Notes: generated from the letters alone by a model not told the origin. A stretch of DNA of 64,000 bases from Longimicrobiales bacterium (GCA_028278645.1 JANQDZ010000067.1:1-64000), one strand, 5' to 3'; counted from the first letter of the stretch, positions 6,461 to 46,989 are shown. A program made the numbers and translations.

Positions 6461-7054
6461 ATGTCCGTCATCGACCAGCTGACCCAGGAGTTGTCCCGTT
6501 TCCCGGGGATCGGCCCCAAGACCGCGGTTCGTCTCGTCTACCACCTCATGAAACGGCCGAAGGAAGAGGCCCATCGACTCAGTCAGGCCGTCCGTGACCT
6601 GGCCGACCGAATCCGGCCCTGCCTTACCTGCGGGAACTTCAGTGAGGCCGAGCACTGCGAGGTTTGCTCCGATCCCGGGCGGGACCGATCCACGATCTGT
6701 GTCGTGGAGGAAGCCTACGAGGTGGGAGCAATCGAACGGACGGGCCAGTACAGAGGTCAGTACCATGTTCTCGGCGGCCACCTCTCCCCTCTGGACGGCA
6801 TCGGACCCGAGGATCTGAACCTTGAAACCCTCTTGACCCGTGTGACTCAAGGGGAGGGTAAGGTGTCTGAAGTAATTGTGGCGACGAATGCATCTGTGGA
6901 GGGAGAGGCCACAGCGGTTTATCTTGAAAATGTGGTCCGTCCCCTCGGCCCCCGGGTTACACGCCTTGCCAGAGGGATCCCGGTTGGGAGTGATTTGGAG
7001 TATGTGGACGGAACCACCATCGCTGAAGCCCTCTCGGGCCGCAGGGAGATGTGA
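6461..7054 (+). CDS. recR: Recombination mediator RecR
   Basis: The 197-residue protein has an N-terminal helix-hairpin-helix (LSRFPGIGPKTAVRLVYHL), a C4 zinc finger (CLTCGNFSEAEHCEVC), and a Toprim domain (ICVVEEAYEVGAIE ... GEGKVSEVIVATN). The C-terminal segment TRLARGIPVGSDLEYVDGTTI is typical. It works with RecO/RecF to load RecA at gaps. The stop overlaps a GTG of the next frame, though I prefer a later start for that gene. Confidence 0.97.
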   Translation: MSVIDQLTQELSRFPGIGPKTAVRLVYHLMKRPKEEAHRLSQAVRDLADRIRPCLTCGNFSEAEHCEVCSDPGRDRSTICVVEEAYEVGAIERTGQYRGQYHVLGGHLSPLDGIGPEDLNLETLLTRVTQGEGKVSEVIVATNASVEGEATAVYLENVVRPLGPRVTRLARGIPVGSDLEYVDGTTIAEALSGRREM

Positions 7055-32601: not shown

Positions 32602-33306
32602 CTATTCCGTGAGGTAAGACACCGCCTCCGAGAAGGTAGGGAACCGTAGGAAGTCCTCGTGTATGGGAGGCACATTGTCGTAGTGCCACATCTCGTAAGG
32701 CTCCACCAGGATCGCCCTGGCCCCAACCGCCAGGGCGGGATTGATATCGCTTCGAAGGCTGTTTCCGATCATGGTGGCATGAGAGGGCTCGTGGATCCCA
32801 AAACTGTGAACGACCTCTTGGAATGTAACGGGGGTTTTTCGTTCCACGATCCGAACTCGGTCCAGCGGGATTATCTCCGTGACCCCGGCCTCCCTGATAC
32901 GCTCCAGCTGGTATTGGGTTTGAGCGGCCTGGGAAAAGATCGCCGTCGGGATCTTCTCGGACAAAGCCAGAAGAGATTCCAAACTTCCGTCCATGACCTT
33001 TGGCCGCCCGAGGAAATCTCGCCCGAGGCCAGCACACCGCTCGGCCACTTTCGGGTCAGGGTTTCGCCCCTTCTTCCGACAAAGCCGTACGTAGGTCTCT
33101 CGGAAAGAGGGGGCCATTCTGAACGGACCCATCCCGTGAGCAGCCAGCAGCTCCGGGTCCACCTCATCATAATGGACTTTATGGGAAACATCCCTGGAGA
33201 AGCCCTCCGCTTCCAGGAAGGCAAACAACGCCTCCCTCGCGTGTTGGAAGGCCGGGGCTGTCTCCACCAGCGTGTCGTCGAAGTCCACCAGGACCAACTC
33301 TATCAT
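32602..33306 (-). CDS. HAD-superfamily hydrolase (phosphatase)
   Basis: The 234-residue product starts at ATG 33306 ([16 protein letters not shown]), giving the nucleophile motif DFDDT near the N-terminus. A helical cap follows, then [15 protein letters not shown] (motif II region), a Lys in [12 protein letters not shown], and [23 protein letters not shown] (motif IV, D-x3-D-like). The layout matches small-molecule phosphatases such as phosphoglycolate- or YjjG-like enzymes. The substrate is unknown. The frame upstream to 33456 is not supported. Confidence 0.88.
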
Positions 33307-33443
33307 CTCACACCCGTTTTTCGATTCTCCGCACCAGCCTCTTCCGGAGCGTTCCATGGTACGGCCGAACCTCACCCTCCCCTCCGTCCATGGCTCCGCC
33401 CCGGGAGGATGCCTCTGTTGGGTCAGGACTCTCGGAAGGAAGG

Positions 33444-33486
33444 CCCGGGAAGGCAAGGCCTTTCCCGGGGAAGGCCTTGCCCGGGG
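33444..33486. repeat. Perfect palindrome upstream of comM
   Basis: GGCAAGGCCTT (33452-33462) and AAGGCCTTGCC (33471-33481) form an 11-bp inverted repeat with an 8-base centre, extended by flanking CCCGGG-type bases. It lies 50 bases before comM and between two divergent genes, so it may be a regulator site or a cruciform/hairpin. Confidence 0.6.
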
Positions 33487-33532
33487 GCAGAGCGGGAGAA
33501 CTGGAACCAGGAGACGGGGAGGAACGGAAGAC

Positions 33533-34590
33533 GTGTTGGCCCAACTTTTGTCACCTGCCCTCCGGGGGATTGAGAGCTACCTGGTGCGGGTGGAGGTGGA
33601 TTTGGGGATCGGCCTCCCGGGTTTCGCCGTGGTGGGCCTGGCCGAAGGGGCTGTCCGGGAAGGAAGGGAAAGGGTGTGGGCCGCTCTGAAGAACTCCGGG
33701 TATTCCATCCCACCCAAGAAGATCACCGTAAACCTGGCGCCGGCCGACATCCGGAAAGAAGGCAGCGCTTTGGACCTGCCTTTGGCGCTGGGCCTCCTGG
33801 CCGGGGCAGGACACCTCCCGGCCCAGGGGTTGAATGGGTTCGCCTTCGCGGGAGAGCTTGGGTTGGACGGGACTCTGCGCTCCATCAAAGGGGTCCTGTC
33901 GATGGCGGAAGGATGCCGAGCCGAAGGGGTCCCTACCCTGGTTGTTCCGGAAGCAAATGCGAGGGAAGGGGCTGCCGTGGAGGGCGTCGAGGTCTTAGGA
34001 GCCAAAACCCTCGAAGACGTGGTGCTCCATCTGTTGGGTGAGAAGCCGATCCCATCCCCCACTGACAGTCCACCCGCTCTGGATCGGGGAAGTGAGAGTG
34101 AGATCGGGGACTTGAGCGAAGTCCGGGGCCAGGGGCATGCGAAGCGAGCGCTGGAGGTTGTGGCGGCAGGCGGTCACAACGTTCTCCTGTTCGGCCCTCC
34201 CGGTGCTGGAAAAACCATGCTGGCACGTCGACTCCCAGGGATACTCCCGCCGCTTTCCCTCCAGGAGGCACTGGAGACAACACGGGTCCATTCTGTGGCG
34301 GGGATCCTTCAGGAAAGGCAACCTCTCGTGCGCCGGCGCCCTTTTCGTGCCCCCCACCACACGGTAAGCGATGCGGGCCTGGTGGGAGGTGGGGGCGTCC
34401 CTCGGCCCGGCGAGGTCAGCCTTGCCCACAACGGTGTTCTTTTCCTGGACGAGCTGCCGGAGTACCGGAGGAACGTCCTGGAGGCCCTTCGGCAGCCGCT
34501 GGAGGACGGGCTGGTAGTGCTGGCCCGGGCCCGGGTGTCCTTACGGTTCCCCTCCAGGTTCGTTTTGGTGGCCGCCATGAATCCGTGCTG
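33533..34590 (+). pseudogene. comM: comM (YifB, Mg-chelatase-like helicase), 3' part displaced by island
   Basis: GTG at 33533 starts [36 protein letters not shown], the normal family start. The N-terminal Lon-like domain, Walker [14 protein letters not shown] and the Mg-chelatase core ([31 protein letters not shown]) are intact. The conserved [14 protein letters not shown] motif breaks after MNPC, at about 34590; the following codons are island DNA and reach a stop at 34720. About 350 residues of a usual 500 remain. ComM is the branch-migration helicase of natural transformation, so this allele is probably null. The C-terminal remainder should lie beyond the window at the other island end. 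Confidence 0.92.
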
Positions 34591-36116
34591 TTGTGTTGCC
34601 TTTCTGTCACTGTTGAGGAAGAAGGGGGGGAATTGGAGGGGGGTGAGGTCGGAGAAGGGGGCACCGGCGTCGGAGGAAGGTAACAGAGTTCGATGGTCAC
34701 CTCGTCGGTACCGACCGTAATCTCCTGGACCAGGCTCTCGACGATCTGGTGTCTCTCGCGGAAGGTGAGTTCTCCCCATCGGCTGTAAAGACTCTGGGCC
34801 TCGGTGAGGATCTCGTCCGAAGAGAGGTATTGGATCCGGAGGAAATCGGCTTCCCCCTGGAGACGGGGGATCTCCTCCTCCAGTTGGCCGAGCCGTTCCT
34901 CCAGGGGCCGGTAGCGGGACCCGAAGGCCTCAACACTGAGTTCATCGTCGATGTAGGCTCGATAGACCTTCTCCCGCTCTGTCTCCACGCTCCTCCGCTC
35001 CCGGTCCAGGGCCTGGATCAGCTCCTCCTTCTCTCGAATGGTATGATCGGCCTGGTCCAGGTAGGCGGCCACCTGCTTCGGCGAGAGGAAGAACGCCTTG
35101 AGCTGCTCTTCGAAGACGGCTTCCAGGTCCACGACGGGGATCTTGTTCCGGCAAGCGTAGCAAACGTACTTCGGGGTGTTGGAGGGGACGTACATTTTTC
35201 GGCCGCAGTGGCAGCGAGTGATCCCGGTGAAGAGTTGACGGGGCGGTTTGGCCATCTTCCTCCTGGAGCGGCGTTGCTCCCTTAGGATGCCGTTCACCTG
35301 CTCCCAGAGCTCTTCGGAGACGATGGGCTCCACCGGAGTCCAGACCCACTCGCTTTCGGGCTTTTCCTTCCAGGCCTTTCCTTCGCCAAGGCTCTGGGTG
35401 TAGTTGGCGCGACGCCAGCCCTTGGCCGTGGGATCTCGAAGGAGGCGGTCCACCGTAGTGTCGGAGAAGTTGGCCCCCTTCCGGGTTCGATGACCCCTCT
35501 CGTTCAGGAGCCGGGCCACCGTCTTTTTCCGCCGGTGCTCCAGGAACAACTCGTACATGAGCCTTCGCACCGGCGCCTCGTCCAGGTCCGGCACCAGGCG
35601 GCCCTCGTCCCAACGATACCCGAAGGGAGCGGCACCCCCCAGGGGCTTACCCATCTTGGCCCGGATCTTCACCGAGGCAGCCACCCGGTCGGAGATCTCC
35701 TCCCGCTCCCACTGGGCCATGGCGGCGATCATCGTATAGAAGAGCCGGCCGGCGGGGGAGCTGGTGTCGATGGCCTCCTGAAGGGAGACGAGGTCGGCGT
35801 CGTGCTCCCGGAAGTAGTCGGCAAAGTCCAGGAGCTCCCGGGTATTCCGGGCCAGGCGGGCGAGCTTGGAGAAGATAAGGGCCGAAATGTGGCCGCTGCG
35901 CACGTGCTCCATCATCCGTTTGGCCTCGGGGTGGCCTTGCACCGCCTTGCCGGAGACGGCCTCGAGATGGTAGACCTCCCGGACCTTCCATCCTTTTGAA
36001 TCGGCGTACATCCGGGCTCGGCGTTGGTGGTGCTCCGGGCTGTCTCCCTGAGCCTGGTCCTCGGTGGAGACCCGGATCCAGATTCCCACCGACTTTGGAT
36101 TTTCCTGAGCTACCAT
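34416..36116 (-). CDS. Large serine recombinase (island integrase)
   Basis: The N-terminal resolvase domain has the catalytic serine in [15 protein letters not shown] and the [20 protein letters not shown] and [25 protein letters not shown] motifs. The recombinase domain and a zinc ribbon ([21 protein letters not shown]) follow, then a coiled coil (about 355-440). I prefer ATG 36116, with an AGGCGAGG element 3 bases upstream, over GTG 36137. About 508 codons lie in the island; the frame has no stop at the junction and continues about 58 codons through antisense comM to 34416, with a low-complexity Pro/Ser run at the edge. It presumably catalysed the insertion. Confidence 0.92.
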
Positions 36117-36481
36117 GGTCCTCGCCTCGAATGACACAGGAAGGTTGTGGAGGCCTTTCGGGGAGTATTCGGCACGAGGAGAAAGGAGGCAAGCCTCTTG
36201 GCATTAGCCCGTGAAGGTGAGGACCGATCGCTATGACCCCCGCCCTTCCAGAGGGAGGGAAACCCGCTGCTCGGCCTCGGCAAGTGGCCGTTCCAGAACG
36301 AGCTGTTCCACTGCGTTTCGAACGCGCCTGAGGTACACAACATGTGTCTTACTGAGCTTTCGAAGATCGCTTACGAAGGCAGCCGTCGCCTTGTCGGACG
36401 AGGGCAATCGTGAGCCAGGGCTCCTGGGAGAATGCGTCGCTCCTACGAAGGGGCGTATCAAGCCCATGAAGGCTGAGCAGA
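36117..36481. other. Region between recombinase and first attC-like site
   Basis: This holds the recombinase leader and no convincing gene. A minus-strand open frame of 101 codons (36231-36536) runs through the attC-like site at its 5' end and is only partly protein-like (DLRKLSKTHVVYLRRVRNAVEQL); it may be a decayed or very small cassette gene. Confidence 0.4.
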
Positions 36482-36557
36482 TCTGAACGTCATGCCGGTA
36501 GCGAAAGACCCGAAGGGCTGCGAACGAAGTGAGCACGCGGCAGGACCGCTGTTAGCA
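36482..36557 (-). other. attC-like recombination site (array A, after the TPR-like gene)
   Basis: Read on the minus strand the site runs from TGCTAAC (R'') to GTTCAGA (R'), 76 bp, with inner pairing TGCCG/CGGCA. It follows the TPR-like gene stop (36642) by 85 bases. The layout R''-L''-...-L'-R' is that of an integron attC, though R' departs from the full consensus. Confidence 0.6.
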
Positions 36558-36641
36558 GAAACCGGGCCCCGTCCGGCTATTGTCGGGCAGCGCCCCCGCG
36601 ACTGACCCGAGTAGTTGGGCTTTCCTCCACACTGGCTATTC

Positions 36642-37463
36642 TCACCCTCCGGGGCCTTCGGCGCGGTCCACCCTCTCCAGCAGTTTCTCCTCGTATTCTT
36701 CTGCCAGAGTCGGGTCTTCTAGGATTACCTCGAGGCTTTCTCCACCGATGGCAATCCTGCGGAGGAAGGCCGCATCGATCGCTTCTCGATAAGTATTGAG
36801 AGCTCGAACCTGGTATGCCTGCCAAGGTAGAGTCCAAGGGAGCACATAGTCACGGGAGTGCGGCGAGCCATATGCGGCGACCTCCCAGTACTCCTGGGAT
36901 TCTTCCCATGTTTTCAGGTCCTTTACTGCCTTTAGGTAGTGTTCCAGCGGAGAGAAGTCATACCTCTCATAGTTACTAAAGCCTTCCAACTCACGAACCA
37001 GCCCGAGCAAATACCGGGCGGCGACCCTCTCTCCCGTCGTCGACGCCGCTCTAAACCCTGCCTCGGCTGCTAAGCGCGCCTCATACAAATGCACATCCGC
37101 GGGCCCGGTGGGTTCGGACAGGCGGGCCACCCACCTCTCGATGAACTCGTTGCGCCAAAGGCGTCCGAGATCAAACTCGGGACCGATGGCCTGGCCGATG
37201 TGGGCGTAGGCCTTGCCCTCCCAGTACGCGGGTTTGGACGGTTGAAGGGCCAGGGCCGTGGAGTATTGGTCGATAGCGTCCGCGAAGGCCCCGCCCCAAA
37301 GGCTTGCCTGGGCGCGACGCTCGATGTCCATCAAAGACTCCGGCGCGCGGTTCGCAAAATGGGATGAGATCACCCAGGAGGCCAAAGCACCCAAACCCAC
37401 GCCCAGTAGAGTGTGAGCGACAGTTGAGCTAAGTCGCCTGCGTTTCTTAGTCACTTGAGGCAT
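36642..37463 (-). CDS. Membrane-anchored TPR-like protein (cassette gene)
   Basis: The 273-residue protein has a basic N-terminus (MPQVTKKRRRLSS) and one membrane helix (TVAHTLLGVGLGALASWVI, about residues 14-32). A helical outside or cytoplasmic domain follows, with a TPR-like pair (LWGGAFADAIDQYSTALALQPSKPAYWEGKAYAHIGQ) and further helical hairpins. I recognise no catalytic motif. It sits between two attC-like sites, so it is a single-gene cassette. Its function is unknown; TPR proteins often serve as scaffolds or sensors in conflict systems, but that is inference. Confidence 0.75.
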   Translation of the reverse strand: MPQVTKKRRRLSSTVAHTLLGVGLGALASWVISSHFANRAPESLMDIERRAQASLWGGAFADAIDQYSTALALQPSKPAYWEGKAYAHIGQAIGPEFDLGRLWRNEFIERWVARLSEPTGPADVHLYEARLAAEAGFRAASTTGERVAARYLLGLVRELEGFSNYERYDFSPLEHYLKAVKDLKTWEESQEYWEVAAYGSPHSRDYVLPWTLPWQAYQVRALNTYREAIDAAFLRRIAIGGESLEVILEDPTLAEEYEEKLLERVDRAEGPGG

Positions 37464-37554
37464 TCGCCTTCAACTCAGACCGGACCCCGGCTACTCGCCA
37501 ACGAATCCGGGGATTCGCAATCCCGCTCATGGACCTTGGGTTAAAGCCCGTTTC

Positions 37555-37681
37555 TGCTAACGGTTCGCACGCTACCGGCATTCGCGATGGGCGCGACGTT
37601 TGCCACCGAAAACGGCGTGACCGCGTAAATGAGCCGAAGGCCGCCAGCCATCGGCGAGCCGCGGTAGGCGTGCTGTTAGCC
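37555..37681 (-). other. attC-like recombination site (array A, after the RT gene)
   Basis: Minus strand: GGCTAAC (R'', 37681-37675) to GTTAGCA (R', 37561-37555), 127 bp. The arms pair further through GCACGC/GCGTGC and CTACCG/CGGTAG with an unpaired spacer, as in attC hairpins. The RT stop codon TAA is inside R'', which is typical of cassette genes. Confidence 0.75.
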
Positions 37682-39529
37682 GCCCCCCTTATATCGCATT
37701 ACCCCTTCTAACACCTTGTCATTCATCAAACCGCACACATCGGCCCTCAGTTTGTCCTCGGCAGAGGGGCCCAGGTTTCCACCCATGAGCGACTTTGCCA
37801 CCAGTACCTTGTACAAGGGATAGTCCGCCGCCGCATGATACAGGTAAGACTTGAGCTGGTGATCCAGTTGGCTCAGGCGGCGGAGTTCCCCCAGGTGCCC
37901 GAGGACCCGCAATCCCTCCAACAACCCATTCCTGGCCAGTTCGCCCTCCAACCACTGTCTCCCACTTGAGGAAAGCTTGGGCCAGACGGCTGCAACCTGT
38001 CTCCCGGCCCATTCCCTTTGGCGCCAGGATTCCTTGGTCAACTTCAGGTACTCCAGAAGCCCCTCGTCGCTATCGTATTTCACTTTCAGCCATAGTCCGG
38101 CACATAGCGCCGATACGTCCTCGCGCCGATTCGCCCATACCAAGTCCGGGAGTTCTCGGACTTTCCTGAGGTTTCGGCTCCCCAGGGGGATCCTCCACGA
38201 CACCAACAAGTGACAGGCTTCGAACATCGACAGGTCATCAACACATTGTCCTGATGTTAGGAAGTGGTGGATATGTCCGAAGCGAGTAGGGGAGTAACCC
38301 AAGGCCCTATAGTAGGCGAATACCCATGTCCGCACTGCCGGAATGGTCTCTAGGATCTCTGGAACGCGGGTCTCCACGGCCGGGTCTCGAGCCTGTTTGA
38401 AAAGGGTTAGGTAGCGTTTTAGTACCTTCACCCAGTGCCCGGTCTGGGCGGCCTGCCAATGATCTTCGAAGCGGCGTCGAGCGATCGTACCAGCTCGTTT
38501 GAAACGGCGGAGCCGCAGCAAATTCCGGAAAACAGTCAGCCAGAGGTTTTCCCTAATCCACAGATAGCCTGAAGCTTGGGTCGCCGACAGGATTACTGAT
38601 TTGCCCGCGTTGATCCGCACCCCGAGGGTGTTGAGGCGTGCATCCAAGCCTCCGAGTATCCGCTTCCCTTCTGTCCGATTCTCAACGCCAATGTTTATGT
38701 CATCCATCCACCGGGCGAATTCGTCCTTTACCTCACCGTGTAGGTAATGGTCAACATCATAAAGGAAGGCGTGCGCCAACAGCCGTGGGGCGTCAAAATC
38801 CAATTGCGGGAGGCCCACACCCGAGTGCGGTATGTAGTCTGGACGCCAGACAAAAGCCTCCAACAGATATAGCAGGAGGTCCAAGACCTTCTCTTCAGCG
38901 GCATTCAGGGCGGCCAGCTTGTTCCTGAGGAGGTACAATGGGATGGTGTCGAAGTAGTTGGCGATATCAGTAAGGATGACATAGTCGTGCGATCTTGAGA
39001 ATCCCCATATTCGCCTCTGAAACTCCGGCCAGAGAATCCACCACGGGTACTCCGGGGATTCCTCCCAATCCTCAATGTTCGGCGGTCTATGAGACCGGCT
39101 GTAATAGCTGTTTCTGGTTGGTGCCTGAGCGATGACAACATCGGAGATCGCATCCGAGATCGCTTGAAGGAGGACCGCATCGGCAGGCGTGGGAAGCACC
39201 AATCGGCGGGTGATCCCGAGATTTTTTTCCAGCCTCACAACGGTGGCTTCCCTCGGCCGGTATGTCCCCGAAAGAACGTCTTTTCGCACGCGGGCCATGA
39301 AGGCTTGCCGCGCCCGGTGGACATCAAGGTGGTCATGAAGGTCCGCGATGCCCTGGTCCCGAAGACCCTTTCGCACGGTCTTCCATGATTTCTCGAGGTG
39401 ATCAGGACTCAGAACGTCCTCTAGACTAACTGGCGACATCGGACTCAGGCCCAGGTCCTTTTCTGCATCTGGCTTTGTTGTTGAGGCCGGTTGGGGCACT
39501 ATTCTCTGCGAGGGAACAAGGCCTTCCAC
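37676..39529 (-). CDS. Reverse transcriptase of the unknown-group/defence type
   Basis: The 617-residue protein has RT motif A ILTDIANYFDTI (about 188-199), motif B-like GVGLPQLDFDAPRLLAHAFL, and motif C RWMDDINIG (about 270-278). Motif C has Trp-Met-Asp-Asp in place of the usual Tyr/Phe-x-Asp-Asp, but the catalytic aspartates are kept. A motif D-like GVRINAGKSVILSATQ follows. The C-terminal about 300 residues are helical without an endonuclease or maturase domain, like AbiA/AbiK and other DRT proteins and unlike group II intron RTs. GTG 39529 overlaps the MBL-PRTase gene by 31 bases. The stop lies in an attC-like site. A DRT-type antiphage role is inferred. Confidence 0.88.
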   Translation of the reverse strand: MEGLVPSQRIVPQPASTTKPDAEKDLGLSPMSPVSLEDVLSPDHLEKSWKTVRKGLRDQGIADLHDHLDVHRARQAFMARVRKDVLSGTYRPREATVVRLEKNLGITRRLVLPTPADAVLLQAISDAISDVVIAQAPTRNSYYSRSHRPPNIEDWEESPEYPWWILWPEFQRRIWGFSRSHDYVILTDIANYFDTIPLYLLRNKLAALNAAEEKVLDLLLYLLEAFVWRPDYIPHSGVGLPQLDFDAPRLLAHAFLYDVDHYLHGEVKDEFARWMDDINIGVENRTEGKRILGGLDARLNTLGVRINAGKSVILSATQASGYLWIRENLWLTVFRNLLRLRRFKRAGTIARRRFEDHWQAAQTGHWVKVLKRYLTLFKQARDPAVETRVPEILETIPAVRTWVFAYYRALGYSPTRFGHIHHFLTSGQCVDDLSMFEACHLLVSWRIPLGSRNLRKVRELPDLVWANRREDVSALCAGLWLKVKYDSDEGLLEYLKLTKESWRQREWAGRQVAAVWPKLSSSGRQWLEGELARNGLLEGLRVLGHLGELRRLSQLDHQLKSYLYHAAADYPLYKVLVAKSLMGGNLGPSAEDKLRADVCGLMNDKVLEGVMRYKGGG

Positions 39530-41046
39530 GGCCTCCCCTCATATTCACCGTCCTTCCAGAGGATTGGCAGACTACAGTTGGGCGTGTTATATGAAAAGAC
39601 TATGAGCTTCTGGCCCCGGCCATATCCTAGAGCAAAGCGCTCTTTCTTCGCTTCTCCCCACGCTCGCTGATCCCCGAAGAGCTCCTTGCCAATCTCAAAA
39701 GCCAGTTTCTGCGCGTGGAGTCTTACTTGTGGGTTTTCAAAGACCAGGCTCTTTGCGTCAAAGCAGCCATCTGACTCGCGGAGTTGTGTCCCAACACGAA
39801 TGTTCAGCTGGACTCCTGCCCCATTCAGAGTCTCTTCCACGTGCTGAACCCCTTCCTGGAATGCTACCACCGCGAAGTAGGTCAGCCGCGTCGCGCGGAG
39901 CCATTCTTGGGTTTCCGAAGACAGGGACTTGACGTGTTTTGCCCTCTTTTTCGATAGACCAAGCCACTCCTGAAAGATCCGCGTCGCTTGGTTCCCCGTG
40001 CCGAGCATGTCATCGAGGAAGATCACTTCGACCTTATGAGGATCGTAGGTCTCGGCGAGTGTCGGCAACGAATCGAACGCGAACCTCTTTCTCTCCCACT
40101 CTTTGAAGGCTTTGCTGCACAAATAATTCACCTGGCTCGAACTATCCTTCATGCTTCCGAGAAGGCAAAAAAGGACTTGGCGGTCCGTTTCCTCGGCATA
40201 GCTGTCATAGAACTCTCGGAAGATGTCGGTGATCACCTGGTCATCCAAATAATGGATCCGCTCCAACAGAGGAAACACAGCCTGAGCATCCAAATAACCC
40301 CTGAACTGGAGTAGCCATTCCCGAATTCGGTCCTCGGTGACACGTGCATAGTGGGTCTGAAAGCGCCTGGCCATTTCGGCAATTCGCGCTGCAATGGGCA
40401 GTGACCTCAGGAACTTCTCCGCACCGCCCCGGCTCTCACGACTGGGGCCAAGGTGAAGGTCGGCAAAAGAGGGGGCATCAAACATATCGCCATGTCCAGG
40501 AACGATGTGGGTGGCTATCCTCAAGATTCGTTCTCGGCTCCTCTGTTGTCTCTCAGGTTGTTTTGACCACGCCTTCCAGGCCTCCGACTCCCAGTCGCGG
40601 TCACACTCGAAGATGTCGCCGGAGATCACTACGGTGCCGTTTTTCGCCTCCACTACAACGCTGACATCATGATCCGTATGGCCAGGGGTATGAATCACAG
40701 AGATGCCCTCGGAGATGTGGAAGGCATCCGATGCAAAATCATGGACCGTGAACTCGTCCTGCCTGGAGACGTCTGTGTCGAGAAGAAAAGTGGCTCCAGG
40801 AAAGAGGTTGTTGTTTCCGATGTGGTCCGATTGACCGTGCGTATTGACGACATGGTCTATGTCGGACGGTGCCAGGCCATGGTTCTTCAGGGCCCGAATC
40901 AGGTCATCCTTCTGATGAGGCAACCCGGTGTCGGCCAGTACGTTTTTCTCCCCCTTGATTAGGGTCACGGTCCCAGAGGCCCTTTGTTTTCCCGGTCCCT
41001 TCCAGTCGGCGTATCCGGGCAATAAGACGAAGACTTCGTTCTTCAT
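39499..41046 (-). CDS. MBL-fold/phosphoribosyltransferase-like fusion, partner of the RT
   Basis: The 515-residue protein starts at ATG 41046, with AGGAGACC 7 bases upstream. Residues about 1-210 are an MBLAC1-like metallo-beta-lactamase fold: NTHGQSDHIGNNNLFP, HTPGHTDHDVSVVV, ISGDIFECDRDWE and IVPGHGDMF. The first motif has Gln where the second His of HxHxDH is expected. A helical linker (about 220-330) leads to a phosphoribosyltransferase-like domain with the PRPP loop VEVIFLDDMLGTGNQATRIF (about 337-356), the kind found in conflict systems (PRTase-CE). It overlaps the RT start and so forms one translational unit. Acting on a nucleotide or NAD-like substrate is an inference. Confidence 0.82.
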   Translation of the reverse strand: MKNEVFVLLPGYADWKGPGKQRASGTVTLIKGEKNVLADTGLPHQKDDLIRALKNHGLAPSDIDHVVNTHGQSDHIGNNNLFPGATFLLDTDVSRQDEFTVHDFASDAFHISEGISVIHTPGHTDHDVSVVVEAKNGTVVISGDIFECDRDWESEAWKAWSKQPERQQRSRERILRIATHIVPGHGDMFDAPSFADLHLGPSRESRGGAEKFLRSLPIAARIAEMARRFQTHYARVTEDRIREWLLQFRGYLDAQAVFPLLERIHYLDDQVITDIFREFYDSYAEETDRQVLFCLLGSMKDSSSQVNYLCSKAFKEWERKRFAFDSLPTLAETYDPHKVEVIFLDDMLGTGNQATRIFQEWLGLSKKRAKHVKSLSSETQEWLRATRLTYFAVVAFQEGVQHVEETLNGAGVQLNIRVGTQLRESDGCFDAKSLVFENPQVRLHAQKLAFEIGKELFGDQRAWGEAKKERFALGYGRGQKLIVFSYNTPNCSLPILWKDGEYEGRPWKALFPRRE

Positions 41047-41123
41047 GGCACGGTCTCCTGGCCGTCTGAAGACTCGGATTTGTTCCCCTCATCCCCATCA
41101 GACTTCAGTTGCTTGGCAGGGGC

Positions 41124-41208
41124 GGCTAACTCCGGCAACGCGCCCGACATGTCCGAATACGGTCTCACTGGCCGTCTTGGCGACAGATGTCTGAAAAGGA
41201 CGTTATGG
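41124..41208 (-). other. attC-like recombination site (array A, upstream of MBL-PRTase)
   Basis: Minus strand: CCATAAC (R'') to GTTAGCC (R', 41130-41124), 85 bp. TAAC pairs with GTTA and is followed by TCC/GGA. R' fits the GTTRRRY consensus; R'' is degenerate. It would bound the RT cassette on its 5' side, 78 bases before the start codon. Confidence 0.5.
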
Positions 41209-41748
41209 TCGAAACGTCGTGGGTCACGGCAGCGCACATTACTCCGACGCAATAGGGGGGTGAAGAACCTTAATCAGCTCGACTAGAGACCGCTAGGGCC
41301 TCCCAAAGACGCTTACCCGTGAAGTGGAAGTGTACTAGGAAACCGAGCGCGGGCCATCCAGCGGCTCGGAGACCCGAACTTGGAGAGAGATCCGTCTTCA
41401 GCCGCTCTCCCTCGGCCTGGAGCCAGGCTTCAACGGCTCTGATGCCGGCCTGAGGCTCTCGGATTCCCGGCCCGCGATCCGCGTCTGGAATCCCTTAGTC
41501 GGGACGTCCTCCCAAACCGCATCGGATCGCGCGCTGCACGGATGTGCGGCGAGGTCGGGTCGTGACAAGAGCTCCGAGGTCAGAAGAATCCATGTCCTTT
41601 CCAGGGTGGACTTCGGGGACTTGGGGGAAGTGAGGGCAGGGGGATCGAAGTTGATCTCCTGCACCCAGTATGCGACGGAGGAGAGAGAGAAGCTCAGGAA
41701 AGGGATGTTTCGAAGTCCCCAGAGTCCCCCAGGTCCACCCGGGCACAG
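41209..41748. other. 540-base stretch without a supported gene
   Basis: I see no protein-like frame with a ribosome-binding site. Short frames here (for example minus 41398-41664) have biased, repetitive composition. The stretch separates array A from the conjugation-type ATPase gene and may be cassette remnant. Confidence 0.5.
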
Positions 41749-44700
41749 CTATTTCCCCTTCAGACGCTTGCCGGCCTTGAGGATCACCGAGGCGATGGCC
41801 TGGGTCCGGGTGCTCTTTTCGCCCTCCTCCATAGGCTGGTACCGGGTTTTTACCCGCCAACCTCGGACCGTCTCCTCTCTGGAAGCGCTGTGGGCTTCCC
41901 TCTCCTCTAAAAAGGCGAAAAGCTCCTCGGGGGTGAGGAAGTGAACCTTGGTGAGGTTCTCCTCCTCTAAGGCCGTGCTCACGGCCTCCCGGGCTTTGGC
42001 CAGGACCTTCCGCTCGGGAGATACCACCGCCACCGCCTCAAACCCCCCTGCCAGGCATTTCTGGACGTTGCTCACCTCCTGCCCCGGCGAGCTCGCTATC
42101 GAGACCTCGCAGGCTACGGTGTCCTGGCCTCGCTCCAGGGCCACGTCCACCCGGCCCAGCCCGTCCAGAACGGGTTTCTCGATGATGACGTGCCATCCCC
42201 GGTTCCCGGCCCAGCGCTTGATGAGCTCCTGGAGATACTGGTGTTGGGCCCCGCCTCGCCCCAGTGCCGGCGGGGGTTCCACTGGTGGGGTGTGCTCCCC
42301 CAGGGACTTCCTCTCCCGGGTGGGCTGCTTCCCCGGGGCTTTGCGGGGCGCCTTTTCCCCGGGGTGGGTCTGAGCCCTGCTTCTGACCCCTTCCACCTCC
42401 TGAGGCCCTTTCAGAGGCCGTGGAGCGGCTTCTGGAACGCGGGTCGCCTTTCGCCGGAGGCTCCTCTCGACCTCCTCCAGGGGTGTCGCATAGCGCTCCC
42501 GGGACCGGGCAAGGGCTTGCTCTCGGCGGGCCCGGGCGACGTTCGGATCGGCGGGGGCATGGGGCAAGGTTCGGAGGTTGAAGTCCCAGTCGGCCCGCTC
42601 TACCCGGCAGAGGGCCTCCCCCACACCAAGCGTCTGAAGATCCGCTGAGCCGAACGATGCGAACGCCTCGGCCAGGCGGCGGGCGTCCCGATCCCCCACC
42701 CGGAAGCAGACCCGGACCGCGGGATTGGTGAGGAGAGAGCTGGTCAACTCCGGACTCCGGTTCTGGAGCTGCCCCAGTTCCTGGTGGGCCAGGGTGAGGC
42801 CGAGGCCGTACTTCCGGGCCCCAGCCAGGATCTGAGCCATGGAGGGGGTGACGAAGTGCTGGAACTCGTCCACGTAAAGCCAGAAGGGGCGGCGCTCGGC
42901 TTCGGCCACCGCCTGCCGGGCCAGGGTGAGCTGCTGGAACTTGGCCACCAGGAGGGAGCCCAAAAGGTGGGCGTTCTCCTGGCCGATGGCCCCCTGGGCG
43001 AGCTTGGCCAGGAAGATACGGCCCTGGCTCATGATCTCGGCGAAGTCCACCCGGTTTTCCCGCTGAGAGACCATGTGCCGGAGGGGCTTGGGGGCCAGGA
43101 AGGCGTCCAGGCGGGTCAGGACAGGGCCTTGAGGTCGCCCGGACAGGAGGGGAAACTCCCGCTCCCAGAAATACACCACCTCGGGGTCGCGGATCGAGGG
43201 GAGGAAGGCCCGCCGGAAGGGCTCCTCCACCAGGAAGCGCTGGAGGTCGGCCAGCGTGCCTCCCTCCTCGGATTCCAGGAAAGCCAACACGGCGTTTCGG
43301 AGGACCGCCGTCATCTGGTCTCCCCAGCTGGTGGCCAGGCGGCGGAAGACGGCCACCAGGTCCGAGGCCAGGAGCGTCTTCTCCAGGGCCGAGTGAGCCT
43401 GGAGGAGGTTGAGCCCCACGGGCCAGGCCTCGTCTCCGGGGTCCAAGACAACTACCTCGTCCAGGCGCTCAAGGGGGATGGAGCCCAGCACGCGGTCCAC
43501 CAGGTCCCCGTGGGGGTCCAGGACGCCCACACCCTCTCCGGCTTCAATGTCCTGGAGGATCAGGTTCAGGAGGAGGTGGCTCTTACCGGTCCCGGTGGCG
43601 CCGACGAGGTGGATGTGACGGAGGCGCTGCTCGGAGGAGAGGGTCACCGCCGCCGCCTCCCCCGCGTGGAGGTTTTCGCCCAGGACCAGGGACTGGCCGA
43701 GGGCGGTGGCAGGAGCGGCCCGTGTCTTCCTCCGCTCCCGGGCCAGCTTCTCGGCTCGGACCGAGGCCGAGGGGAGGTGAACCAGAGAGACGAGCTCCTC
43801 AAGGTTCAGGAGCATCCCGCACCGCCGGCTCTGGCGGGCCAGGAGGTCGTGCTCGTGGTCGTAGGGATCATAGTCGGCGTCCGAAAGAGGGATCAGCTCG
43901 TTCGAGGTGGGGCGTGCGAACTGCCGGAGACCCCCGCCCAGGGCCCGGGCTATTGCCCAAGCCCGATCCGAGGCCGGGCTCAGGGCGCCGATCCGGACCA
44001 ATGCTGCGTAGAGGGGGCTCGCCACTTTGGCTTTGGCCAAGGGCAGGACGTCGGGGGCGTCCGAGAAAAACGCTCCGCCCTCCCGGTCCGTCACCGCTCG
44101 CAGCATGCTCTCGGACCAGGGGTGCCGGGTGGGCTGGAAGAGGACCTGGAGGACGGCGATCTCGCCCTCGTGGAGATCGGCCAGGGCGCCCGTGAGGCCG
44201 ATCAGGGGGTCCGGCTCGAAGGCTCGGAAAGTCCTCATGGGGAGCATGAACTCGTGGGAGAGGCCGAAGTCTACCACCACGCCCTCGCCGACCCCCGTTC
44301 CTTCCCAGCAGCCCACCAAGAAGTTGGCCTCCTCCGTGAGGGCTCCCTCGGGGAAGTAGGCGACGAGCTGTTGGCGAAGGATGGGGCCGTTCTCCGGATG
44401 GCAAGCGAATTGGACCAGCGTTCGCTCTGGCAGGCCCACCAACTCAAAACTCAGGGGAGAGGTGATCGACGAGAGGGAAAGGAGGAGCTGCTCAGCCGCC
44501 TCCCGGGTGACCTTGACCTCCGGCGGCAGCGATACCTGAAGTTCCAGCAGGGGTCCGCGTCCTGGTAACTCTTCTGGCTCGGGCTCCCAGAACTCCTCAT
44601 CGGCCAGAACGCCCACCGCCCTTGAGGGTGGGGCCGGGCCGGCGAAAAAGGCTCGCACCCGGTCCGCCAGGGAGCTCAGGATCGTGGGCTTCCGGGCGTC

Positions 44701-44895
44701 GTCGTCGACCGGCAAAGATGTCAGCGGTCTGAGGGAGTAGAACGGACGGAAAGGGGGCTCCAGCTGCACAGGATAAGGCCAGACCTGCCAACCCCGGCCC
44801 CGGCGTTCCCAGGCGTAAAACGAGGTCGTGAGGCGCTCTACGAGGGTCGCTGCAGGCTCTGGGACGGTGGGGACGAAGGACTCCGGGTCGGGCAT
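41749..44895 (-). CDS. HerA/TraD-like DNA-pump ATPase with C-terminal nuclease-like domain
   Basis: The 1048-residue protein has an N-terminal about 400-residue domain (PFYSLRPLTSL ... ELQVSLPPEVKVTREAAEQL). The ATPase has Walker A VGATGTGKSHLLLNL (about 430-444), GVLDPHGDLVDRVL, and Walker B FWLYVDEFQHFVTPS (about 672-686), then GLGLTLAHQELGQL, the TraD/VirD4/DUF87 arrangement. After a charged linker (about 800-900) comes a restriction-endonuclease-like domain (GLGRVDVALERG ... TVACEVSIASSPGQE). It is paralogous to the ATPase at 62767. It probably moves DNA during conjugation or mobilisation; no relaxase is nearby. Confidence 0.85.
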   Translation of the reverse strand: MPDPESFVPTVPEPAATLVERLTTSFYAWERRGRGWQVWPYPVQLEPPFRPFYSLRPLTSLPVDDDARKPTILSSLADRVRAFFAGPAPPSRAVGVLADEEFWEPEPEELPGRGPLLELQVSLPPEVKVTREAAEQLLLSLSSITSPLSFELVGLPERTLVQFACHPENGPILRQQLVAYFPEGALTEEANFLVGCWEGTGVGEGVVVDFGLSHEFMLPMRTFRAFEPDPLIGLTGALADLHEGEIAVLQVLFQPTRHPWSESMLRAVTDREGGAFFSDAPDVLPLAKAKVASPLYAALVRIGALSPASDRAWAIARALGGGLRQFARPTSNELIPLSDADYDPYDHEHDLLARQSRRCGMLLNLEELVSLVHLPSASVRAEKLARERRKTRAAPATALGQSLVLGENLHAGEAAAVTLSSEQRLRHIHLVGATGTGKSHLLLNLILQDIEAGEGVGVLDPHGDLVDRVLGSIPLERLDEVVVLDPGDEAWPVGLNLLQAHSALEKTLLASDLVAVFRRLATSWGDQMTAVLRNAVLAFLESEEGGTLADLQRFLVEEPFRRAFLPSIRDPEVVYFWEREFPLLSGRPQGPVLTRLDAFLAPKPLRHMVSQRENRVDFAEIMSQGRIFLAKLAQGAIGQENAHLLGSLLVAKFQQLTLARQAVAEAERRPFWLYVDEFQHFVTPSMAQILAGARKYGLGLTLAHQELGQLQNRSPELTSSLLTNPAVRVCFRVGDRDARRLAEAFASFGSADLQTLGVGEALCRVERADWDFNLRTLPHAPADPNVARARREQALARSRERYATPLEEVERSLRRKATRVPEAAPRPLKGPQEVEGVRSRAQTHPGEKAPRKAPGKQPTRERKSLGEHTPPVEPPPALGRGGAQHQYLQELIKRWAGNRGWHVIIEKPVLDGLGRVDVALERGQDTVACEVSIASSPGQEVSNVQKCLAGGFEAVAVVSPERKVLAKAREAVSTALEEENLTKVHFLTPEELFAFLEEREAHSASREETVRGWRVKTRYQPMEEGEKSTRTQAIASVILKAGKRLKGK

Positions 44896-44907
44896 CGGGT
44901 CCTCGAC

Positions 44908-45573
44908 TCAGCCCTGGAAGAACTGCCGGAGCATGGGCTTTCGCTCCAGCTCCGAGAGGGCCCGGAGGCCTTTGGCCTTGGTCATCTCGTCCACCACGCC
45001 CAGGACGGCTTGGTGGACGGCACTCTGGAACATGAGGGCGGTGTCGATGCGGTAGTAGGTGGCCGGCCGGAACCAGCGCACGTAAAGGCCGCCGAGAAGG
45101 GGCATGGCCGCCAGGGCGTCGTCCCACCCCTCCACCTGGCCCACCAGGTAGCGGGCGAAGACCCAGAAGAGGAGCGGAATACCGGGAATGGCCAGGATGA
45201 GCCCGGCGAAGGTGCCAAAGAGCATGGTGAAGAAGCCCGAGAGAAGGAAGATCCCTACGCCGAGGCCGAGTAAGGCCAAAGGTCCGTAGGGGGAGGGAAG
45301 CTCCCCGAGCCACCAGGAGACGAAGAATCCGTTGCCGAAGGGTGCGCCGCAGATGTCGAAGACGTTCCTTCCCCGACCGACCCGCAGGTACTCCCGTTGA
45401 GCGGAAAAGAGACCGCCCTCACGCCAGTCGACCCGGGAGACCTTGGCATCGGGGAGTTGCCTCCGCTTGATACCCTCCTCTACGGAGGCGTAGAACTCCA
45501 TGGGGGAGGCCTGGAGGTTTTCGATGAGTTGGTACCAGTGGGAGAAAACAATCGGTGCGGATGCAGTAGCCAT
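44908..45573 (-). CDS. Two- to three-helix membrane protein next to the DNA pump
   Basis: The 221-residue product starts at ATG 45573, with GGGAGG 5 bases upstream. A soluble N-terminal about 85 residues (HWYQLIENLQASPMEFYASVEEGIKRRQLP) is followed by hydrophobic segments LALLGLGVGIFLLSGFFTML and FGTFAGLILAIPGIPLLFWVF, then a cytoplasmic tail. I do not recognise a family. It ends 12 bases before the TraD-like gene, so the two are probably one operon; a membrane anchor for the pump is a reasonable guess. Confidence 0.75.
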   Translation of the reverse strand: MATASAPIVFSHWYQLIENLQASPMEFYASVEEGIKRRQLPDAKVSRVDWREGGLFSAQREYLRVGRGRNVFDICGAPFGNGFFVSWWLGELPSPYGPLALLGLGVGIFLLSGFFTMLFGTFAGLILAIPGIPLLFWVFARYLVGQVEGWDDALAAMPLLGGLYVRWFRPATYYRIDTALMFQSAVHQAVLGVVDEMTKAKGLRALSELERKPMLRQFFQG

Positions 45574-46093
45574 AACAGCCTCCCGGCCAGCGTACCGTAT
45601 CTGAAGGTAGGCGCAGGTGGGGGGCTGACCACCACGATAGAGAAAAGAAGGGATGAGGGGCAAGGGGAATCGTACCCGGCTTCCGTCGGTACACCGGGGG
45701 CCCGGAGTGGAATGCGGCTAAGCTCTTGTGTTTTTGGCCTCCAGGACGGATCTTGCCTTCACCTCCACGTGGAGAGGCGCCCCCTCATTTCTGTTTTGAC
45801 CCCTTCAGCGGTGGCCGAAGAGACTCCTTCGGTCCTGGGCGGTTTTTTTTCGGGGTGCAGATGCCTACCTACTGCAGTTCTCTGTTGGACATCGAGAGGC
45901 AATGGCACCTCCCTTCCAGGGGAGTTTTGGATCAAATCGGGCTCTGGACCGTTCCGACTGGGCACATCCCGCCAGAACGAAAGTGTAAAGGGCTTTCGGA
46001 GGAAGACCAGCTTGCCGCTGCTCTCGGAAGAGGCGGCAGTCGCGCACCGCCGTCCGCCACGTTTGGTTCACCCTCCAGCGGAGGACGCGAAGC
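45574..46093. other. Divergent intergenic region
   Basis: This lies between a minus-strand operon and a plus-strand operon, so promoters for both are expected; I find no convincing -35/-10 pair. A plus-strand frame ending at 46097 overlaps the next gene's ATG as ATGA, and from ATG 45861 would code 78 residues (MPTYCSSLLDIERQWHLP), but its codon use is not clearly coding. An eight-T run is at about 45843-45850. Confidence 0.4.
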
Positions 46094-46384
46094 ATGAGGA
46101 AGACCCCGATTCTGGCTTTCATCGGCGCGCTGCTCGGGATACCTCTGAGTTACTACTTTCAGCCCGAGATCGTCCGAGCGAAGCTCTCGCTCTCGGAGTA
46201 TCTCACCCATCTGCCGGAGATAGTGACGGATGAGAGTGGAGCCTACATCGCGCCCGTAATCTTGACCGTTCTCATCTCTGCGATGGTGCTCGGCGTAGTG
46301 GGCATGTTCATGGATCAGGGGGGAACACAGCAGATCGGAGGCGCGAACGACGAGGACTCCGATTCCCCCGAGTCTGCGCCTTGA
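46094..46384 (+). CDS. Small two-helix membrane protein
   Basis: The 96-residue protein starts at ATG 46094, with GGAGG about 8 bases upstream. Hydrophobic segments are TPILAFIGALLGIPLSYYF and YIAPVILTVLISAMVLGVVGMF, with an acidic C-terminal tail (ANDEDSDSPESAP). Its family is unknown. It is the first gene of a three-gene plus-strand unit and overlaps the next start. Confidence 0.7.
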   Translation: MRKTPILAFIGALLGIPLSYYFQPEIVRAKLSLSEYLTHLPEIVTDESGAYIAPVILTVLISAMVLGVVGMFMDQGGTQQIGGANDEDSDSPESAP

Positions 46385-46989
46385 GGATGTTGGTTGTCAT
46401 GGCGGCGGCTGCCGCCTTGACTTCGTCGGTGGTGCTGTGTGGGGCCTTGCCGTCGCTGCCGAGCGTCGAGCTCCGGGCGGATGAACATCGGGTTTTCCGG
46501 ACTGGGGACATCGTGTTCGTCCGAGGCCGGTCTTGGCGAAGCCACGTCGTGAGGTTGCTGGACAGGGATAACGGCGATTTCTCGCACGTCGGCTTGGTGA
46601 GGGTCGAACAAGGGGCGCCCTACGTCATCCATGCGACGCCGACTCCCTCGGAGGGCTCGAAGGCCGGCTCCGTCAGGAGGGAGGAGTTGAGTGACTTCCT
46701 TTCCTCGGACCGGATCGCTCAGGCCGGCCTATTCCGATTGAGACAGGATCCTGGTGGCGTCGCAGAGGCCGCTGCCTCCGTCGCCCACGCCTTCGCGACC
46801 AGAGGCGCCCCTTTCGATCACAAGTTCGACTTGTCGATGGCTGAAGCACTCTACTGCACAGAGCTCGTTTGGCGGGCCTACCGTCAGGTGGGTGTTGAGC
46901 TGGTCGACACCGGCCCCGATGGGAAGACGATTCTGCTGCCGTCGGCCTTGCGGGAGAGTGTGTATCTCGAGGAGATCGCCAGGTTCTGA
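46381..46989 (+). CDS. YiiX/YebB-like permuted NlpC/P60 cysteine hydrolase, secreted
   Basis: The protein has about 200 residues with a hydrophobic N-terminus (MLVVMAAAAALTSSVVLC), a likely signal peptide. The permuted papain-fold motifs are FRTGDIVFVRGRSW, the catalytic His in DFSHVGLVRVE, and the catalytic Cys in EALYCTELVWRAYRQ. YiiX-like enzymes cut lipid or amide bonds; a cell-wall or lipid role for transfer is inferred. TTG 46381 overlaps the preceding stop; ATG 46387 is an alternative start. Confidence 0.82.
   Translation: MRMLVVMAAAAALTSSVVLCGALPSLPSVELRADEHRVFRTGDIVFVRGRSWRSHVVRLLDRDNGDFSHVGLVRVEQGAPYVIHATPTPSEGSKAGSVRREELSDFLSSDRIAQAGLFRLRQDPGGVAEAAASVAHAFATRGAPFDHKFDLSMAEALYCTELVWRAYRQVGVELVDTGPDGKTILLPSALRESVYLEEIARF

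Follow-up and report, generated by a model that had tools for sequence, protein, structure and literature searches.

We analyzed a 64,000-nt stretch of DNA from a Longimicrobiales bacterium (GCA_028278645.1 JANQDZ010000067.1:1-64000; hereafter the window), in which a reverse transcriptase (RT) gene lies next to a gene whose product joins a metallo-β-lactamase (MBL) domain to a phosphoribosyltransferase (PRTase) domain. Both genes are on the minus strand, as are all domains, motifs, attC sites and cassette genes of the window described below. The MBL-PRTase gene (39499..41046) comes first and is a single open reading frame (ORF) of 515 aa that begins with ATG and matches Pfam Lactamase_B and PRTase-CE. 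The RT gene (37676..39529), which a PADLOC match and a tree place in class UG13a, encodes 617 aa if translation begins at a GTG at 39529, preceded by a purine-rich stretch (GAGGGGAGG), or 607 aa from an in-frame GTG at 39499. Both ORFs are intact and uninterrupted. The original prediction, a reading of the sequence that preceded this analysis, had the genes overlapping by 31 bases. This holds for the start at 39529, but the start at 39499 gives a one-base overlap with the partner's TAG stop codon (TAGTG) and is the better fit, as it leaves 38 residues ahead of the conserved W49, compared to 25-38 in most homologues. Residues 1-28 lack order in the AlphaFold2 model of the RT. Since the genes touch or overlap under either start, the sequence suggests that their translation is likely coupled, with the precise overlap not fixed. 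The two genes are 56.5 and 54.5% GC and 65.7 and 64.7% GC at third codon positions (GC3); nearby type IV secretion system-type and housekeeping genes have higher GC3, at 83-86%.

The pair is bounded by features of an integron cassette. On the RT side, an attC site (37556..37681) ends the cassette and contains the RT stop codon (GGCTAAC). It shares 78% identity with a site at 40964-41099 of contig C50 from the same genome (E=5e-22) and resembles about ten sites of the integron on that contig (71-88% identity; nine further matches below E=0.01). As single-stranded DNA, it folds with its ends paired (z=-2.2, with 5 of 200 shuffles equally good). The 5′ boundary of the cassette has an attC-type core box, GTTAGCC (41124..41130); the MBL-side flank did not match the C50 attC sites and folded no better than shuffles. 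Thus, of the attC-like sites proposed on both sides, the RT-side site is solid, while on the MBL side the core box alone is clear. Folding was weak for two attC sites (B and C), which were assessed by their resemblance to the resident array instead. No attC lies between the MBL-PRTase and RT genes. From these sequence features, we conclude that the two genes are one two-gene integron cassette.

The resident array on contig C50 (38365 to about 70000) is a chromosomal integron with about ten related attC sites over 29 kb. It contains about 20 cassette-sized ORFs; by eye, several are beta-propeller lipoprotein-like and one resembles a death-on-curing toxin. An integrase-like ORF beside the array matches TIGR02249 in two pieces (110 and 101 bits, against a 265-bit cut-off), and its N-terminus looks incomplete. 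Since no integron integrase was seen among the genes around the window attC sites, these look like a small attC cluster without an integrase. Both chromosomal and mobile integrons carry phage-defense cassettes, according to a passage of PMC12409362 that cites Darracq et al. 2025 and Kieffer et al. 2025.

The RT is a member of the already named UG13 class, as judged by sequence profiles and phylogeny. Tools list UG13 among the candidate enzymes of phage defense. Pfam RVT_1 matches it (E=1e-8), and the PADLOC RT_UG13a model matches full-length (aa 35-608) with 581 bits, compared to 109 bits for the runner-up class, UG21. All catalytic residues are present in the RT domain (aa 36-320; 38570..39424), which carries motif A TDIANYFDT and motif C WMDD. 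In an alignment of 27 UG13 RTs, all of which match the RT_UG13a model (each below 1e-60), the residues of motif A do not vary, nor do D276 and D277, the aspartates of motif C; M275 is conserved at 90% or more. Thus, although the RT motifs that had been proposed are there, WMDD is the normal form of motif C in UG13 and not an odd variant. IQ-TREE placed the RT within the UG13 clade (97/94), grouped with six UG13 RTs (96/96) and sister to a Pseudanabaena RT (99/99; 40-42% identity). Because this group mixes Cyanobacteria, Bacillota and Bdellovibrionota, and because 120 other genomes from the family gave no match to the RT, it appears to have arrived horizontally.

To collect UG13 loci, we used a four-sequence RT profile on a collection of 84,980 species, which yielded 56 loci that were mostly but not all UG13. 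Scans with the single RT sequence found no match in genome or viral contigs; the four-sequence alignment succeeded in the genome contigs. Some UG13 RTs adjoin genes matching defense models, such as restriction-modification or MADS components, and many lie among housekeeping genes. In both Leptospira weilii plasmids that we read, a UG13 RT is next to a gene that is annotated as encoding a restriction endonuclease and weakly matches Mrr_cat; a third L. weilii plasmid has the same RT.

An AlphaFold2 model of the RT, built from the 27-sequence alignment (pLDDT 88, pTM 0.86), consists of the RT domain and an all-helical C-terminal repeat domain (aa 325-612; 37694..38557), whose helices mostly exceed pLDDT 90. 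In Foldseek searches with this model, group II intron RTs ranked first by E-value. The best whole-query-normalized scores were up to 0.47 for UG15/DRT4 (DRT, defense-associated RT), 0.46 for DRT6, 0.44 for AbiK and 0.41 for AbiA, and the alignments to these four cover most of the chain. In the model, then, the layout of RT domain and helical repeats is that of AbiK, AbiA, DRT4 and DRT6. Abi RTs carry out protein-primed, untemplated DNA synthesis (PMC12632851). In the cassette, only about 80 nt lie 5′ of the MBL-PRTase gene and the attC takes in the stop codon of the RT, leaving no room for a separate template RNA of retron size; an Rfam scan of 34000-46500 gave no match. For these reasons, the better guess is that the RT makes DNA without a template.

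The C-terminal part of the partner protein is a PRTase-CE domain (aa 241-513; 39508..40326), matching PF24390 with E=3.5e-36 (125.8 bits, against a gathering cut-off of 27) and PADLOC PRTase_III-A, the model of the type III-A retron effector, with E=8e-31. The loop LDDMLGTGN (aa 344-352; 39991..40017), which binds phosphoribosyl pyrophosphate (PRPP), is conserved, fully or almost so, in four further PRTase-CE proteins, and alignment with such proteins revealed that the C-terminal LPILW motif is also retained. The original prediction of a PRPP loop and an MBL domain in one chain was therefore correct, as was its view that the PRTase-like domain belongs to a family of conflict effectors. PRTases are present in validated defense systems and in type III retrons (PMC13092281, PMC12548924). 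A PDB profile search with the domain gave just a weak match to ribose-phosphate pyrophosphokinase (E=0.06).

Surveying 298 genomes of the phylum, we found PRTase-CE above cut-off in six, the window included. One of these (G032, contig C11) has a type III-A retron (PRTase_III-A 396 bits, RT_III-A 453 bits), in which a PRTase with an extended C-terminus is followed by the retron RT. In G053, PRTase-CE is fused to an NTPase-like region; in G279 and G058, its gene adjoins an NTPase-like gene; and G009 has a partial match. These varied contexts suggest that PRTase-CE is exchanged among unrelated modules, one of them an RT system. No second MBL-PRTase fusion was found in about 400 genomes of the phylum, and a scan of viral contigs for the fusion gave no match. 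Among viral contigs, the PRTase-CE profile picked up four distant proteins, and no UG13 RT profile match lay close to any of them.

The N-terminal MBL domain (aa 3-193; 40468..41040) matches Pfam Lactamase_B (E=1e-16), and its closest PDB match is human MBLAC1 (4v0h, E=9e-37), reported to be an endonuclease that acts on histone mRNA 3′ ends (PMC6303110). Stand-alone bacterial MBL relatives in the same class (G012, G142 and G030) are 45-53% identical; the MBL domain had no match in viral contigs. Alignment with these three relatives and MBLAC1 revealed that in the zinc motif (H70-G-Q-S-D-H75; 40822..40839) the second histidine of HxHxDH is replaced by glutamine, giving THGQSDH in place of HGHLDH (bacterial relatives) or HGHSDH (MBLAC1). 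The remaining metal ligands, H123, D144 and H185, are present. Thus, the partner has the predicted MBL domain, but its HxHxDH metal motif is incomplete, and the domain would serve in binding or regulation, or act as an altered hydrolase.

Beyond the RT-side attC is a further cassette gene (36642..37463). Its 273-aa product may have an N-terminal membrane anchor and shows a weak tetratricopeptide repeat (TPR) match that falls short of the cut-off (TPR_11, E=0.0012), but matches no other family. A second attC follows this gene (36476..36560), matching the C50 sites when aligned over 36510-36570 (E=4e-12). Both cassettes probably belong to an integrative element that interrupts comM. The left end of this putative element carries a serine recombinase gene (34416-36137), and the RT cassette is about 3-6.5 kb in from that end. 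The comM/yifB gene is cut at a conserved NPC|PCG motif, between AATCCGTGC and CCGTGCGG (window 33272-36137), and its 3′ part is on contig C31 of the same genome (about 6490-6943). Also in the element is a type IV coupling protein-like gene (41749-44895), just downstream of which is a 28-nt inverted repeat (41601-41743; 82% complementary, 87 nt between the arms).

As the RT falls in the UG/Abi (DRT) group, as the original prediction had it, and the PRTase in a conflict-effector family, a role in phage defense is the natural reading, and we consider a defense role for the RT probable. Whether the RT and MBL-PRTase act as one system is evenly balanced. At a probability of roughly 0.5, we favor a mobile anti-phage module in which a UG13 RT is coupled, in an integron cassette, to a PRTase-CE effector with an N-terminal MBLAC1-like MBL domain. 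A more specific model, which we put forward tentatively, is a new DRT type, put together as an integron cassette and spread in that form, in which untemplated DNA synthesis by the UG13 RT gates the MBL-PRTase. A class 1-type RT would thereby be combined with the effector principle of retrons (PRTase), with no non-coding RNA (ncRNA). From its architecture, the RT would oligomerize and make protein-primed, untemplated DNA, as AbiK, AbiA and Abi-P2 do. With less confidence, we suggest that the RT or its DNA product could keep the PRTase effector inactive, or could activate it upon phage interference; this gating is modeled on the use of a PRTase effector by type III-A retrons. The active PRTase would then spoil a PRPP-, nucleotide- or NAD-related pool, and phage growth would be halted by abortive infection. 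That the PRTase alters nucleotide or NAD pools is a guess.

Several results weigh against a joint defense module. The search for further genomes with this RT next to an MBL-PRTase was negative: a sensitive profile search found a PRTase-CE or MBL neighbor in none of the 44 other UG13 loci (27 of which come with 1.5 kb or more of flanking sequence on each side), and the pair is known from one genome alone. Since UG13 RTs are usually solo and the partner is absent from all these loci, it is unnecessary for the function of the UG13 family. No published test of UG13 function or defense was found in the literature searched, and the MBL-PRTase model from AlphaFold2 reached pLDDT 34.5 and was discarded. 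The UG13 RT may instead work alone, as is presumably the case for its solo relatives, the MBL-PRTase being a separate defense or metabolic gene that shares the cassette for transport and expression. Such an arrangement is consistent with the missing partner at other UG13 loci, with the lack of a recurrent neighbor (no family accounts for more than two of the 59 UG13 neighbors scanned) and with the service of PRTase-CE alongside several unrelated partners. However, the two genes overlap or touch within one cassette, have no attC between them and match in composition. Integron cassettes mostly carry one gene. That two genes were kept in this one suggests selection as a unit, which counts against independent passengers, and we consider that explanation, the main rival, rather unlikely. 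Taken together, the sequence data fit a recent, lineage-specific recruitment of the partner; most likely, a UG13 defense RT recruited a PRTase effector.

Toxin-antitoxin cassettes are abundant in integrons, and the pair could be a toxin and antidote operon, in which a toxic PRTase is silenced by the RT, its DNA product or the MBL domain and defense is a by-product of cassette addiction. There is a precedent in retrons, where a complex of RT, ncRNA and RT-DNA sequesters a toxic effector (PMC12548924). Since the MBL lacks one zinc ligand, and since this model overlaps the gated effector described above and differs mainly in purpose, we regard it as improbable. It is less probable still that the RT copies an undetected ncRNA, with the RNA-DNA hybrid gating the PRTase in the manner of type III-A retrons. 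Although the PRTase domain matches type III-A retron effector models and a true III-A retron is present in the same phylum, the RT is UG13a rather than a retron RT, the roughly 80 nt before the MBL-PRTase gene and the attC at the 3′ end leave little space, the Rfam scan was negative, and a Pfam scan found no winged-helix domain on the PRTase. Finally, the cassette could serve metabolism or RNA repair, with its likeness to defense components confined to the family level. The many UG13 RTs among housekeeping genes would agree with such a task, but the setting is a mobile integron, PRTases occur in validated defense systems and type III retrons (PMC13092281, PMC12548924), and tests have shown several UG/Abi RTs to be defense proteins (PMC12632851); a non-defense role therefore has a low probability.

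The favored reading, a UG13 RT coupled to a PRTase effector, would matter in several ways. The locus offers a candidate effector for UG13, and in it the effector domain known from type III-A retrons accompanies an RT from another lineage. Joint action of the pair would show that effectors pass between retrons and UG/Abi RTs and that a PRTase can be controlled by an RT lacking a template RNA. In that case, the role of untemplated DNA in such systems could be tested with a two-gene, 3.5-kb cassette. As far as we searched, the fusion and the combination are new, while the class of the RT and the two domains of the partner are already known as families. The placement of the RT in a named class and the missing partner at all 44 other UG13 loci partly refute the original prediction; as had been noted there, the exact pair corresponds to no described system found in the literature searched, which did not cover the UG/Abi classification of Mestre et al. 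2022.

Comparison with known systems places the cassette between several of them. Like type III-A retrons (RT, PRTase, winged helix and ncRNA), it has a PRTase-CE-type effector next to an RT; it differs in its UG13 RT, its added MBL domain, the absence of a winged helix and the lack of room for msr/msd. Membership in this retron type was examined and rejected, as none of the 25 best PADLOC matches of the RT was a retron RT model and neither an Rfam match nor a winged-helix domain was found. With the PRTase-CE (PF24390) proteins that accompany STAND-type or other NTPases, the partner shares the effector domain, the DDxxGTG loop and the C-terminal LPILW, but it is joined to an MBL domain and its companion is an RT, not an NTPase. 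The MBL domain resembles MBLAC1/LACTB2-type MBL-fold nucleases across most of its length (E=9e-37 to human MBLAC1), but has glutamine for histidine at the second metal ligand and is fused to a PRTase. In the model, the RT shares with class 1-type UG/Abi RTs (AbiK, AbiA and Abi-P2; also DRT4/UG15 and DRT6) an RT domain followed by alpha-helical repeats, with Foldseek alignments of 485-672 columns; TM-scores are moderate (0.30-0.47), identity is about 10% and the partner gene in the window is new. To the UG13 class itself, the RT is alike in its full-length match, its motifs and its helical C-terminal domain, and whereas the other UG13 RTs found here are solo or have varied neighbors, the window RT is the one with an MBL-PRTase partner.

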